Shown here piece by piece: positions 33,545 to 41,466 of a stretch of 64,000 bases of DNA. Origin of the DNA: Pseudomonadota bacterium (GTDB lineage Bacteria > Pseudomonadota > Alphaproteobacteria > Acetobacterales > Acetobacteraceae); the NCBI GenBank assembly GCA_021845985.1, contig JAJZES010000012.1, positions 62,001-126,000 on the forward strand, written 5' to 3'. Position numbers and translations under genes: made by a program. Every line of letters starts with the position of its first letter. The stretch's first letter is position 1. The notes beneath the pieces are model-generated. The model did no database searches. It was not told the DNA's origin and worked only from the letters and a program-made list of their open reading frames with translations.

Positions 33545-34135
33545 ATGCCCCGCACCGCCAGCCTCGCCCGCACCACTTCGGAGACCGAGATCACCCTGTC
33601 GCTCGATCTCGACGGCACTGGCCGGGCGCAGATTGCCACCGGCATCGGCTTTCTCGACCATATGCTGACGGCGCTTGCCCGCCACGCCCTGTTCGACATG
33701 CAGGTCGCCGCCCGCGGCGACCTGCATGTCGATTTCCACCATACCACGGAGGATGTCGGTATCGTGCTCGGCCGGGCGCTGGCGGAGGCGTTGGGCGACA
33801 AACGCGGCATCACCCGGTTCGGCCACGCCATCGTGCCGATGGACGACGCTCTGGCGGAGGCCGCGGTGGATCTCTCCGGTCGGCCATTTCTCGCCTGGAC
33901 CGCGCGCTTCGGCCCGCCCAAGATCGGCGAGATGGACACCGAACTGTTCGAGGAGTTCTTTCGCGCCTTCGCCTTCAACGCCCTGCTGAACCTGCATGTC
34001 ACGGTCAAGGCCGGGACCAACGCACACCATATTGCCGAGGCCTGTTTCAAGGCCACGGCGCGGGCGCTGCGCATGGCGGTGGCCCTCGACCCGCGCGTCG
34101 GCGACGACGTGCCCTCGACCAAGGGGGCGCTGTGA
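33545..34135 (+). CDS. hisB: Imidazoleglycerol-phosphate dehydratase
   Basis: HisB dehydrates imidazole-glycerol phosphate in histidine synthesis. The 196-residue protein is the monofunctional form. The metal-binding repeats are seen as [11 protein letters not shown] and [17 protein letters not shown], and the active-site start as GIGFLDHML. It is the first gene of the his operon here and overlaps the DUF2628 gene (GTGA). Confidence 0.96.
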
Positions 34136-34503: not shown

Positions 34504-35138
34504 GGGTCGCGGTCATCGACTACGGCAGCGGCAACCTTGCTTCGGCCTCGCGCGCGCTCGCCGTCGCCGCGGAACGCGAAGGTCTCACCGCGCAGGTCGC
34601 CATCACCGCAGATCCCGACGCGGTGGCCCGCGCCGACCGTATCGTGCTGCCCGGCCAGGGCGCCTTCGCCGACTGCGCCGCCGGCCTTGCCGCCATTGCC
34701 GGTCTCAGCGACGCCATCGTCGCCGCCACCGATCGCGGCGCCCCGTTTCTTGGCATTTGCGTCGGCATGCAGTTGATGGCCGAACGCGGCCTGGAACATG
34801 CCGTTACCCCGGGATTTGGCTGGATCGACGGTGAGATCGCCGCGATGGCGGTGCCGCAGGCGCTGCGCCTGCCGCAGATGGGCTGGAACGAGCTTTTTTT
34901 TACGCCCGGCGCGCATCCACTCCTGGAAAACCTGCGTCCTGGCGACCATGCCTATTTTGTCCACAGCTACGCGCTGCGCGGCGGGCGTGCGGCGGAGACC
35001 ATCGCCACCACCGAGTACGGCGGACCGGTCGCCGCGATCGTCGCCGCCGGCAACCGCGCCGGCACGCAGTTCCACGTCGAGAAAAGTCAGGAGGTGGGCT
35101 TGCGCATCCTCGGCAACTTCCTCCGCTGGTCGCCGTGA
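34500..35138 (+). CDS. hisH: Imidazole glycerol phosphate synthase, glutaminase subunit
   Basis: HisH releases ammonia from glutamine for HisF. The 212-residue protein has the class I amidotransferase triad: Cys87 in LGICVGMQ, His192 and Glu194 in QFHVEKSQ. The oxyanion-strand PGQGAF is near residue 51. The GTG start at 34500 overlaps the DUF2628 stop. Confidence 0.96.
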   Translation: MRVAVIDYGSGNLASASRALAVAAEREGLTAQVAITADPDAVARADRIVLPGQGAFADCAAGLAAIAGLSDAIVAATDRGAPFLGICVGMQLMAERGLEHAVTPGFGWIDGEIAAMAVPQALRLPQMGWNELFFTPGAHPLLENLRPGDHAYFVHSYALRGGRAAETIATTEYGGPVAAIVAAGNRAGTQFHVEKSQEVGLRILGNFLRWSP

Positions 35139-35710
35139 GCATCGACGCGCTTTCCGACGACGGTGCCCCGCCCGGCCACAGTCTCGCTGTCGATCGCGCC
35201 GGCGAACTGAGCGACGACGACCTCGCTGCGCTGTGCGATGCCACCAACGCCGCCATTATCGACGGCGGCGGCTTCGGCTGGATCAATCCGCAGGGCCGGG
35301 TTTCGCTGGAGAGCTATTTCAAAGGCGTGCTGCTGGTGCCGGAGCGGCAGTTGTTCATCGTCCGGCTGGACGGTGTCGTGGTTGGCGCGGTGCAACTCGT
35401 CCGCCCGCCGCGCAACAACGAGGCGCAGGCGTTCGCGGCACATCTCCAGCACAGCTTTATTGCCCCCTATGCGCGCGGTCACGGGCTGGCGCGGATGATG
35501 ACGCAGCGGGTCGAGGAATCGGCGCGCGCGCTCGGCTACCATGTGCTCAACCTCGATGTCCGAGAGACGCAGGAGGCGGCGATCGCGCTTTATGAGTCGA
35601 TGGGCTATATTCGCTGGGGCGTGCATCCGGTCTATGCCCGCGCCGGCGGGCGCACCGTGCGCGGCATCCATTATTTCAAAATCCTTCAGCCGGACGGCCG
35701 CATCGCATGA
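35135..35710 (+). CDS. GNAT family N-acetyltransferase in the his operon
   Basis: A 191-residue GCN5-type acetyltransferase. The acetyl-CoA loop region is seen in [21 protein letters not shown], and the last part [20 protein letters not shown] is the usual motif B. Its GTG start overlaps the hisH stop and its end overlaps hisA, so it is firmly within the operon. The substrate is unknown; acetylation of a histidine intermediate or a toxic by-product is a possibility without direct support. Confidence 0.82.
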
Positions 35711-36453
35711 CCGGCCTGACGCTGTATCCGGCGATCGACCTCAAGGACGGCGCCTGCGTCCGTTTGCGCCGCGGCGCGATGGACGAGGCGACGGTCTATT
35801 CCGACGATCCCGGCGCGCAGGCGCGGGCGTGGCAGTCGGCCGGCTGCCGCTGGCTGCATGTGGTGGACCTGAATGGCGCCTTCGCCGGCGAATCGGTCAA
35901 CGGCGAGGCGGTGGCGGCGATCCTGGCGGCGGCGACCATTCCGGTGCAGCTCGGCGGCGGCATCCGCGACCGTGACGCGATCGAGCGATGGCTCGCCGCC
36001 GGCGTCCGCCGCGTCATCCTTGGCAGCATCGCGGCGCGCAATCCGGCGCTGGTGCGCGAGGCCTGCCGCGCCTTTCCCGGCCGCATCGCCGTCGGCATTG
36101 ACGCCCGCGACGGCTATGTCGCGACCGACGGCTGGGCCGAGACCTCCGATATGCGCGCGCTCGATCTCGCGCTGCGCTTCGAGGATGCCGGGGCGGCGGC
36201 GATCATCTACACCGACATCAGCCGCGACGGCATGCTGAGCGGCCTCAACCTGGAACAGACGCTCGACCTCGCGTTCCAGATTTCCACCCCGGTCATTGCC
36301 TCCGGGGGAGTCGGCAGCCTCGCTGATCTGGCGTCGCTCAAGCGCGCGGTGGACGGCATGGCGGGGGCGCTGGTCGAGGGCGTGATCGTCGGCCGGGCGC
36401 TCTATGACGGGCGCATTGACCTCGGGGCGGCGCTGTCGCTGTTGGCGGGCTGA
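35707..36453 (+). CDS. hisA: ProFAR isomerase
   Basis: HisA is the (beta/alpha)8 isomerase acting on N'-ProFAR to give PRFAR. The 248-residue protein has the catalytic aspartate in YPAIDLKDG (Asp11), the second aspartate region [10 protein letters not shown], and two phosphate loops ([15 protein letters not shown]). It overlaps the GNAT gene by 4 bases. Confidence 0.96.
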
Positions 36454-36519: not shown

Positions 36520-37287
36520 GTGCTGAAGCTGCGCGTCATCCCGTGTCTGGACGTCAAGGACGGCCGCGTCGTCAAGGGCGTTAACTTCGTTGCGCTGCGC
36601 GATGCCGGCGATCCGGTGGAGCAGGCCGCGGTCTATGACGCGGCCGGCGCCGATGAGCTGACCTTTCTCGACATCACCGCGAGCCACGAAAACCGCGACA
36701 CCATCCTGGACGTGGTGGCGCGCACGGCGGCGCGCGTGTTCCTGCCGCTGACCGTCGGCGGCGGCATCCGCAGCGTCGGTGACATGCGCCGGCTGCTGCT
36801 CGCCGGTGCCGACAAATGCAGCATCAATTCCGCCGCCGTGGCGCGCCCGGAACTGGTGCGCGAAGCGGCGGAGAAATTCGGCAGCCAGTGCGTCGTCGTC
36901 GCCGTCGATGTGAAGCAATCGGCGCAAGGCGCCTGGGAGGTGTTCACCCATGGCGGGCGGCACGGCACCGGCATCGACGCCATAGCCTGGTGCCGGCGGG
37001 TGGCGGAGCTCGGCGCCGGTGAGATCCTGCTGACCAGCATGGACCGCGACGGCACCGGCCAGGGTTTTGATCTCGACCTGCTGCGCGCCGCCTGCGCCGC
37101 CGTGCGCCTGCCGGTGGTGGCCTCGGGCGGCGTCGGCAGCGCCGCCGATTTTGTCGCCGGTGCCCGCGCCGGCGCCACCGGCCTGCTGGCGGCCAGCGTA
37201 TTCCATTTCGGCCAGTTGACGGTGGCGCAGGTGAAGGCGGCCCTGGCGGCGGCCGATTTGCCGGTGCGTCTGATGCAGGCAGCTTAA
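36520..37287 (+). CDS. hisF: Imidazole glycerol phosphate synthase, cyclase subunit
   Basis: HisF closes the imidazole ring with ammonia from HisH. The 255-residue barrel has Asp11 in [25 protein letters not shown] and [16 protein letters not shown], all diagnostic. The start is GTG at 36520 with GAGAGGAG upstream. A 66-base gap after hisA, with a small hairpin (ggcacggcgtgcc), separates it from the upstream genes. Confidence 0.97.
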
Positions 37288-37290
37288 GAC

Positions 37291-37872
37291 ATGGCAAAGA
37301 AGGCCGCGCCGGGCAAGAAAGCGGCGGGGAAGAGGACGATCGCTTCGGGCAAGAAGGCCGCTTCGGGCAAGAAGGCCGCTTCGGGCAAGAAGGCCGCGTC
37401 GGGCAAGAAGGCCGCGTCGGGCAAGGCGGCCGGTGCCGGCAAGAAGGCCGGTCTGAGCAAGCGAATCGCGGCGAAACGTCTGCCCATCCCGCCGCCCGCC
37501 TGCGGTGCCGGCGGCGCCGAGGTGCTGGATCGGCTGTGGGGCGTGGTGACGCAGCGCCGCGATGCCGATCCGACGACGAGCCATTCCGCCCGGTTGCTCG
37601 CGCGCGGTACCGCCAAGGTGGCGCAGAAGTTTGGCGAGGAAGCGGTCGAGTGCCTGATCGAGGCGATTGCCGGCAACCGCGACGCGCTGATCGCCGAAAG
37701 CGCCGACACGCTCTATCATCTCATCGTCATGTGGGTGGCTGCCGGGGTGCGGACGGAGGAAGTCTGGGCCGAGCTGACGCGGCGCGAAGGCGTCAGTGGG
37801 ATTACCGAGAAGGCCAGCCGCGTGCAGAAGCTGCCGATCCAGTTCGGCCTGCGCACCCGCAAGATTCCCTGA
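37291..37872 (+). CDS. hisE: Phosphoribosyl-ATP diphosphatase with Lys/Ala repeat tail
   Basis: HisE hydrolyses phosphoribosyl-ATP, step two of histidine synthesis. The catalytic domain (about residues 76-177) has the MazG-like [13 protein letters not shown] and [13 protein letters not shown] motifs. Usual HisE proteins are about 105-110 residues; this one has 193. The extra 75 N-terminal residues are Lys/Ala/Ser/Gly only in large part: 18 lysines in the first 63 residues and five near-perfect ASGKKA units (18-47). The tail resembles histone H1-like or AlgP-like DNA-binding tails. No in-frame ATG lies at the domain boundary, so the tail appears to be translated. It starts three bases after hisF. 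Confidence 0.92.
37342..37431 (+). repeat. Five tandem 18-bp units in hisE
   Basis: Units of gcttcgggcaagaaggcc occur five times head to tail. Units 1-3 are identical, unit 4 has one change (t to g) and unit 5 has that change plus aagaag to aaggcg. They encode ASGKKA four times, then ASGKAA. Unit length is a multiple of three, so expansion or loss keeps the reading frame. Confidence 0.95.
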
Positions 37873-40389: not shown

Positions 40390-41466
40390 GTGCCCGCTGC
40401 CGCTGCCGCTGCCGCTGCCGCTGCCGCTGCCGCTGCCGCGGGCGCGGGCGCGGGCTGGCGCATCCTGATCGTCTCGGATGCGTGGCGTCCGCAGGTCAAT
40501 GGCGTGGTGCGCACGCTGGCGACGGTGGCCGACGAGCTGCGCATGCTCGGCCATGCGGTGGAGGTGATCGGGCCGGACCGGTTCCGCACGCTGCCCTGTC
40601 CGACCTATCCCGACATCCGCCTCGCCGTGCTGCCGCGCCGCAAGCTCGGGCGGCTGATCGCGGCGTTCCGCCCGGACCATCTGCACATCGCCACCGAAGG
40701 GCCGCTCGGCATCGCCGCGCGCGCCTGGGTTCGCCGGCGGGGCGGCCAGTTCACCACCTCGTTTCATACCAAGTTTCCCGAATATCTTCAGGCACGCACC
40801 GGGATTCCGCCGCGCCTGGCCTATGCCTGGCTGTGCCGCTTCCACAATGCCGGCAGCGGCGTGATGGTGGCGACGGCGATCCTGCGCGCCGAGTTGGCGG
40901 CGCGCGGCTTCGCCCCCATCCGCGCCTGGACCCGCGGCGTCGATCTCGACCTGTTCCGCCCGCAGCCGCGCGAGGCGTTTGCCGGCATTGCGCGGCCGAT
41001 CTTTCTCTATGTCGGCCGCGTCGCCATCGAGAAGAACATCCGCGGCTTCCTCGACCTCGATCTGCCGGGGTCGAAAGTGGTGGTTGGCGATGGGCCGCAG
41101 CTTGCCGCGCTGCGGCGCGACTATCCGGGGGTGCATTTCACCGGCGCGCGCTTTGGCGCCGAGCTGGCGCGCGCCTATGCTGGTGCCAATGTGTTCGTCT
41201 TTCCGAGTCTGACCGATACGTTCGGCCTCGTGCTGCTGGAAGCGCTCGCCTGCGGCACGCCGGTCGCGGCGTTTCCGGTGACCGGGCCGCTTGACGTGCT
41301 GGCCGGCGCAGCCGGGTCGATCGGTGCCGTCGATGCCGACCTTCGCCGCGCCGCACTCGCCGCACTGGAGGGCGACCGCGTCGCCTGCCGCGCCCATGCC
41401 GAAGGCTTCTCCTGGCGTGCCTGCGCGCGGGCGTTCCTCGACAATCTCGTCACCCTGGCGCTTTAG
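40390..41466 (+). CDS. GT4-type glycosyltransferase with poly-Ala start
   Basis: A 358-residue GT-B retaining transferase. It has the opening ILIVSDAWRPQVNGVVRTL of the MgtA/PimB-like mannosyl- or glucosyltransferases. Later come FLYVGRVAIEKN, then VFPSLTDTFGLVLLEALACG with the donor-binding acidic pair. The product may be a glycolipid, in line with the lipid kinase and LpxH-like neighbours. The GTG start at 40390 leads into 15 alanines and an Ala-Gly run encoded by a hexanucleotide repeat; the true start could lie elsewhere because the next internal candidates come after the repeat. Confidence 0.82.
   Translation: MPAAAAAAAAAAAAAAAGAGAGWRILIVSDAWRPQVNGVVRTLATVADELRMLGHAVEVIGPDRFRTLPCPTYPDIRLAVLPRRKLGRLIAAFRPDHLHIATEGPLGIAARAWVRRRGGQFTTSFHTKFPEYLQARTGIPPRLAYAWLCRFHNAGSGVMVATAILRAELAARGFAPIRAWTRGVDLDLFRPQPREAFAGIARPIFLYVGRVAIEKNIRGFLDLDLPGSKVVVGDGPQLAALRRDYPGVHFTGARFGAELARAYAGANVFVFPSLTDTFGLVLLEALACGTPVAAFPVTGPLDVLAGAAGSIGAVDADLRRAALAALEGDRVACRAHAEGFSWRACARAFLDNLVTLAL
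40396..40437 (+). repeat. (gctgcc)7 hexanucleotide microsatellite
   Basis: Seven exact copies of gctgcc (42 bases) are followed by three gcgggc units (40438-40455). Together they encode the poly-Ala and Ala-Gly start of the glycosyltransferase. Slippage would change protein length by two residues per unit without a frameshift. Confidence 0.95.

Follow-up and report, generated by a model that had tools for sequence, protein, structure and literature searches.

An otherwise ordinary HisE with a family-wide, lysine-conserved N-terminal tail and a C-terminal motif

The HisE protein encoded in the window (the whole stretch of 64,000 nucleotides that was analyzed) is an otherwise ordinary enzyme that bears a lysine-conserved N-terminal tail and a short C-terminal motif, both of them features of the family. 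A preliminary description had reported the tail as an oddity of this one locus. The tail is real, but the feature is larger than first reported: it belongs to the family, is most likely old, and is accompanied by a second element at the other end of the protein. Our leading, though tentative, reading is that the tail would make HisE a lysine-dependent binder of a polyanion (DNA, RNA, or polyphosphate). Here nature offers a case in which the composition of a disordered tail, not its sequence, is conserved, on an enzyme without known nucleic-acid business, and natural tailless relatives provide controls for the role of the tail. If the tail does bind DNA, RNA, or polyphosphate, a housekeeping pathway would be tied to a cellular polyanion; if it aids expression or solubility only, it would still be an instance of lysine-specific conservation in a tail.

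The window protein has the domain, conserved acidic residues, and gene context of HisE

The preliminary description had placed a normal HisE domain behind the basic tail, and profile searches bear this out. Residues 77 to 179 match NCBIfam NF001613 at 157.4 bits (cutoff, 120) and Pfam PF01503 at 63.2 bits (cutoff, 21.3), above the curated cutoffs for HisE, or phosphoribosyl-ATP diphosphatase. Five residues, E116, E117, E120, E136, and D139, are invariant across 52 aligned HisE sequences, the window protein among them; they make up the pattern EExxE ... ExxD, which we take to be the conserved acidic metal-binding residues of HisE. The gene lies in a histidine operon context, with hisB, hisH, hisA, and hisF upstream of it on the same strand (Table 1), and HisI is encoded by a separate gene on a different contig of the window's genome, so HisE is not fused to this pathway neighbor. 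The window protein most likely works as a HisE (phosphoribosyl-ATP pyrophosphohydrolase). The solved structure nearest to it by sequence is 2A7W, the HisE of Chromobacterium violaceum (species name as given in an excerpt of PMC8102479), and known HisE (PRA-PH) proteins share with the window protein the domain, the place in the operon, and the invariant acidic residues. HisE proteins of the outgroup, in contrast, have a median of 6 aa before the domain (67 loci) and none has a K(I/L)P end, whereas the window protein has 74 aa of basic tail in front of the domain and ends in TRKIP.

Table 1. Features of hisE and its operon neighbors in the window
Feature	Position	Strand	Basis or remark
hisB, imidazoleglycerol-phosphate dehydratase (PF00475)	33545..34135	+	Domain match
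hisH, class I glutamine amidotransferase (PF00117)	34512..35138	+	Start approximate; name from context
GNAT acetyltransferase (PF00583), between hisH and hisA	35135..35710	+	Context; rejected as a codependent partner of the tail (see text)
hisA (PF00977)	35707..36453	+	Name from order and homology
hisF (PF00977), directly upstream of hisE	36520..37287	+	Name from order and homology
hisE open reading frame, 193 aa	37291..37872	+	ATG 3 nt past the hisF stop; stop codon TGA
Lys/Ala-rich, acid-free N-terminal tail, aa 1 to 74, net +21	37291..37512	+	Composition; predicted disordered (AlphaFold2)
18-bp tandem array coding ASGKKA	37341..37450	+	TRF: 6.1 copies, period 18, score 171
Lys-poor linker with Pro, last 15 residues before the domain	37468..37512	+	Lys composition of family tails
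HisE (PRA-PH) catalytic domain, aa 77 to 179	37519..37827	+	Profile matches, alignment, AlphaFold2
C-terminal T-R-K-I-P-stop	37855..37872	+	Motif of the family

The tail is basic, predicted to be disordered, and H1-like in composition

By composition, the tail comprises 74 residues (22 Ala, 18 Lys, 12 Gly, 6 Ser, 5 Pro, and 3 Arg, with neither Asp nor Glu), in agreement with the approximately 75 residues of mainly Lys, Ala, Ser, and Gly reported at first; its net charge and the AlphaFold2 model likewise support the strong basicity and the predicted disorder that had been claimed. In the model, residues 1 to 70 have no structure (pLDDT of 44 to 63 per block of 10), and the tail leads into helix 1 of the HisE domain. 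Values of pLDDT are 92 to 96 in the core (residues 81 to 160), 78 in residues 161 to 170, and 51 to 64 from residue 171 on. The tandem array is also real, but the count of five 18-bp ASGKKA repeats did not hold: four units are perfect (37342 to 37413), and two degenerate units then run to 37449, a fifth (37414 to 37431) coding ASGKAA and a more degenerate sixth. The repeat unit, GCNTCGGGCAAGAAGGCC, occurs 7 times at no more than 3 mismatches, always inside hisE, against an expected 0.59 and a maximum of 2 in 100 shuffles. Next to the domain, the tail ends in a linker; across 142 family tails, Lys averages 5% of the last 15 residues compared to 30% upstream of the linker. Elsewhere in the window, at 40394 to 40439, a perfect hexamer repeat, (CCGCTG) × 7.7, codes for a poly-Ala run at the N terminus of a glycosyltransferase open reading frame (40390 to 41466) and is possibly a variable repeat.

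In the 3.78 Mb of the window's genome, HisE alone gave an in-frame match to AAGAAG × 3 (three overlapping matches), and a fourth match, on contig C40, passes through TAG codons; the pattern alone is weak, because AAA codons are not covered by it and a reversed control matches 4 times. Among 2,425 open frames of at least 100 aa in 464 kb, HisE is again the only one with a 40-aa window containing at least 8 Lys and having a net charge of at least +8. The likeness to H1 and AlgP proposed in the preliminary description is substantiated at the level of composition, which is rich in Lys, Ala, and Pro, poor in acidic residues, and predicted to be disordered, as in H1-like proteins, AlgP, and Hc2. The composition of HisE tails correlates at 0.95 with that of the Lys-richest 60-aa windows of 8 same-family H1-like proteins, a figure biased toward likeness because the Lys-richest window of each protein was used, and at 0.45 with that of the HisE domain. 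Profile homology to histone-like families was not found; a Pfam scan of the window protein at an E value of ≤1 returned PRA-PH and a subthreshold MazG match only. Stand-alone H1/AlgP-like Lys/Ala proteins occur in several family genomes (L295, L297, L308, L312, L315, and L317), and the AAGAAG × 3 pattern revealed no in-frame counterpart of them in the window's genome. We rejected the polyphosphate-binding PASK motif as the identity of the tail. This motif is defined, in an excerpt of PMC12345225, as a stretch of 20 aa in which D, E, S, and K together make up 75% or more and one K is present; the window protein reaches 0.55, the best tail 0.70, and none of 146 tails the required 0.75.

The tail and the K(I/L)P-stop motif are found across the family

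We took the family to be the Acetobacteraceae, since Acidiphilium, Acidocella, Acidisphaera, and Rhodopila are among the named relatives (Acetobacteraceae and Rhodospirillales records). With nothing but the HisE domain as the query, 113 of 120 family genomes matched, of which 108 were read; the second hisE copies L213 and L219 were left out of this set. A basic tail is present in 96 of the 108 genomes under a relaxed cut and in 91 under a strict cut, the relaxed cut having been fixed after borderline cases appeared under the strict one, and we give both counts. Tails in the 96 genomes range from 21 to 130 aa (median, 54.5 aa), with a median net charge of +12. The preliminary description had called for a comparison of relatives and would have been undone by a tail missing from all of them or by an assembly error. 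The comparison instead yields a family-wide tail of variable length, and its recurrence in independent genomes excludes both an assembly error and a singleton.

Length varies even between close relatives (94 and 104 aa at 97% domain identity; 108 and 87 aa at 95%). The window's genus is represented by 5 genomes, in which 6 hisE copies were found, all of them tailed, and one of these genomes (G004) has two tailed copies on separate contigs (L007 and L010). Elsewhere in the class, a basic tail was found at 6 of 67 outgroup loci (5 under the strict cut), namely, L126, L127, L132, L141, L142, and, weakly, L264; these scattered tails may be independent gains. A search that had tail and C-terminal peptides among its patterns gave 80 loci, so this 80-locus set leans toward tailed, KIP-bearing proteins. 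The 108-genome counts of tails and of K(I/L)P-stop exclude these loci, while the strict tail in 143 of 165 distinct family proteins is a count from the biased set that includes them. Two loci, L147 and L256, come from one genome. Tail starts outside the window were set by rule, as the first ATG past the hisF stop, and some may be wrong, those of L116, L182, L185, and L199 among them. Six loci (L191, L195, L205, L207, L211, and L225) have a KAVRRAEARHLxPL-like segment between the basic tail and the HisE domain, and a loose pattern for this segment matches 12 of 143 tails.

The second feature of family HisE, besides the tail, is the C-terminal K(I/L)P-stop. It is present in 129 of the 165 family proteins (KIP in 105, KLP in 24), nearly always preceded by T-x, compared to 0 of 67 outside the family; in the set found with the HisE domain alone, 75 of 108 family genomes have it. 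HisE is the sole match to TxKIP-stop (the form searched) in the window's genome, and a tag common to several proteins was rejected on this ground. Changes of state on the tree are too few, counting independent ones, to judge a link between the tail and K(I/L)P.

A tree of HisF and HisE (FastTree) was built from the 211 of 232 rows in which hisF is adjacent. The 160 family rows form one clade (support, 99), the first branches of which (L221 and then L172, L189, and L222) all carry the tail apart from L189; over the 211 rows, the state of the tail changes 13 times. This distribution makes it most likely that the ancestor of family HisE, or a HisE very close to it, already had the tail. In 14 of the 160 family rows the tail is missing or short while HisE is retained, which argues that the tail is unnecessary for catalysis. 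Nine of the 14 fall in two clades of 1.9- to 2.6-Mb genomes and the others are single cases; L199, L170, L037, and L192 are tailed despite genomes of that size, and L212, scored as tailless, carries an 81-aa tail richer in Arg.

The tail looks translated, and its lysines are retained

Across 143 tailed genes, the GC content at the first, second, and third codon positions is 0.615, 0.564, and 0.832 in the tail and 0.717, 0.478, and 0.830 in the domain. With frame 0 of the tail open by construction, stops interrupt the remaining two frames in 90 and 56 of these genes. MAK is the usual beginning, with Lys as residue 3 in 132 of the 143, and in 125 of 140 tailed genes hisE starts no more than 20 nt past the stop of hisF. 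The ATG of the window hisE is preceded by no notable Shine-Dalgarno match, and 66 of the 143 tailed genes lack one of at least 4 nt. An in-frame ATG, GTG, or TTG occurs between codon 11 and a point just inside the domain in 141 of the 143 genes (ATG in 41); in the window hisE, the next in-frame start is a GTG at codon 78, which has no Shine-Dalgarno match. The tail looks translated, sequence tests of this kind stopping short of proving the start codon, and the coding signature, together with the pN<pS pattern described below, disfavors an untranslated tail.

To compare substitution in the tail and the domain, we kept 18 of 35 close pairs (nonoverlapping, with at least 3 domain differences). 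The tail has pN<pS in all 18 (pooled, 0.174/0.388 = 0.45), and the pooled ratio for the domain is 0.031/0.327 = 0.09. Lys makes up 22% of the residues in the tails of the 165 family proteins and D/E about 4%, and K/(K+R) is 0.80 in these tails compared to 0.33 in their domains. In the 143 strict tails, which have 67% GC and were chosen for Lys, Lys accounts for 22.5% of residues, against 3.6% after base shuffling and 6.0% after position-wise shuffling. Lysine retention was assessed in the 8 equal-length pairs among the 18. In the tail without the linker, 71 of 75 Lys positions are unchanged, compared to 144 of 195 other positions (Fisher P = 7 × 10^-5); over the whole tail, the figures are 73 of 80 and 231 of 310 (P = 8 × 10^-4). 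The HisE domain of the same 8 pairs gave no such effect (40 of 42 Lys positions and 855 of 898 others). Because Lys positions outlast other tail positions, it is the lysines, rather than the exact sequence, that are kept. The tail lysines probably matter, and tail charge probably has some role, since the lysines are kept while the remaining tail drifts; this retention would also fit a solubility role or another charge role. Tandem repeats (TRF score of at least 40) are found in 57 of 146 tails, with a period divisible by 3 in 54 of the 57 and most commonly of 15, 18, or 12, and such in-frame repeats offer a route for length change.

Possible roles of the tail

Binding to a polyanion is the reading that we rank first. 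A working HisE would bear a translated, disordered, polycationic N-terminal tail, and this tail would persist through selection on its lysines, with sequence and length free to drift, partly via in-frame tandem repeats. According to an excerpt of PMC8102479, enzymes of the HisE type form dimers in which the chains are swapped, and because HisE works as a dimer, as its homologues suggest for this one, each particle would carry two tails. Through their lysines, these would bind loosely and multivalently to a polyanion of the cell, be it nucleoid DNA, RNA/ribosomes, or polyphosphate, and the binding would place or concentrate HisE, in analogy to the H1-like tails of AlgP and PhaF, which are proposed to place granules. 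A fuller version, which we regard as rather unlikely as a whole, is that an H1-like, lysine-specific tail has tethered HisE to the nucleoid, ribosomes, or polyphosphate for most of the family's history, coupling histidine (and ATP/PRPP) metabolism to the polyanion spatially or under stress, and that the two-tailed dimer may moonlight as an architectural protein by bridging polyanions. Among the matches listed from open-license PMC full text naming HisE or its enzyme, the scope within which we searched, none describes a HisE tail.

Two other readings rank next, and we consider each of them improbable. In one, the tail would offer an acidic protein partner, such as a pathway enzyme, an electrostatic handle within a loose histidine biosynthesis assembly, where TxKIP could be a second contact. 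That HisI is encoded separately, leaving HisE unfused to a pathway neighbor, and that the family is marked by both the tail and K(I/L)P-stop are consistent with it. The charges of HisF and HisI are not: the mean net charge of HisF is alike in tailed (-2.2; n = 146) and tailless (-2.8; n = 14) family members and more acidic (-5.9; n = 51) in the mostly tailless outgroup, and an electrostatic fit of the tail to HisF was rejected because the charge of HisF shows no covariation with the tail among family members. The net charge of HisI is just -2 (one HisI), and TxKIP-stop matches HisE alone in the window's genome. In the other reading, to which we give a similar low weight, the tail has no specific ligand but aids expression, solubility, or folding, a Lys-rich N terminus either helping translation start past the hisF stop or keeping the dimer soluble. 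The close spacing behind hisF in 125 of 140 tailed genes, the usual MAK, and the conservation of composition rather than sequence would all be expected, but a few codons should suffice for initiation, yet the Lys-rich tails have 21 to 130 aa; hisE stays close behind hisF in tailless relatives as well; and solubility alone gives no preference for Lys over Arg in genes of about 67% GC.

The remaining readings are less probable still. PR-ATP, the substrate, is polyanionic, and the first helix of the domain is where the tail attaches, so that the tail might capture PR-ATP (or the product PPi) or steer it to the active site; we think this highly improbable, given that no such tail accompanies the HisE domain at 61 of the 67 outgroup loci, that tail length spans 21 to 130 aa, and that a Lys-poor linker separates the Lys-rich part from the domain. 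A histone-like switch, in which the GNAT acetyltransferase of the operon acetylates the tail, seems more doubtful again. In the 80-locus set, a GNAT gene lies between hisH and hisA at 61 of 61 family loci having both genes, all with strict tails; of the other 19 loci, GNAT was found together with hisA at 5, a hisA match was the sole one at 12 (several of these matches falling at the expected hisF position), and 2 have none, and 14 of the 80 lack an upstream GNAT, some for want of sequence. Against this, among outgroup genomes, 30 of the 60 without a tail and 3 of the 6 with one have a GNAT gene no more than 4 kb from hisE, as do 9 of the 12 family genomes that lack a tail. Because GNAT lies near hisE in tailless genomes of both outgroup and family, the gene and the tail are uncoupled rather than co-occurring, and we rejected GNAT as a codependent partner of the tail. 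Hardly more credible is neutral slippage, whereby the tail is a functionless low-complexity expansion or is untranslated. The tandem repeats in 57 of 146 tails would fit it, but lysine-specific retention, pN<pS in 18 of 18 pairs, Lys far above the level given by base composition, and the persistence of the tail across the family all speak against it. Polyanion binding thus stays at the head of our ranking, ahead of the protein partner and the expression or solubility role.

Comparison with known systems

To our knowledge, AlgP and PhaF are not homologues of HisE, and a Pfam scan of the window protein found no such homology. Within the family, L299 and L306 are presumably TopA-like proteins with C-terminal Lys tails, and we take L305 and L310 to be an aldolase-like protein with a K/A-rich C terminus and a carboxymuconolactone-decarboxylase-like protein with a K/A-rich N terminus. 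In an excerpt of PMC9239181, the C-terminal KPAA tails of AlgP and PhaF of Pseudomonas are thought to place polyphosphate or PHA granules and to bind DNA. As described there, these tails resemble the HisE tail in being disordered Lys/Ala/Pro repeats of H1-like composition that change in repeat number, but they sit at the C termini of a granule-associated protein and a phasin, whereas that of HisE is an N-terminal tail on an amino acid enzyme. Hc2 (HctB) of Chlamydia and the Bordetella-type H1-like proteins likewise have Lys-rich repeat units in variable number (PMC2848022, in excerpt); Hc2 is a DNA-binding protein, and HisE is an enzyme. Actinobacterial topoisomerase I does carry a Lys-repeat domain, at its C terminus, on an enzyme, and an excerpt of PMC7398561 says that this domain confers processivity, but topoisomerase I itself acts on DNA. 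YihI of Escherichia coli has a disordered N-terminal Lys-rich stretch that, in the excerpt of PMC12345225, also depends on acidic residues, of which the window tail has none and family tails about 4%. In the same source, changing K to R in YihI abolishes the polyphosphate shift, and a comparable loss of polyphosphate binding would explain the preference for Lys over Arg in HisE tails.
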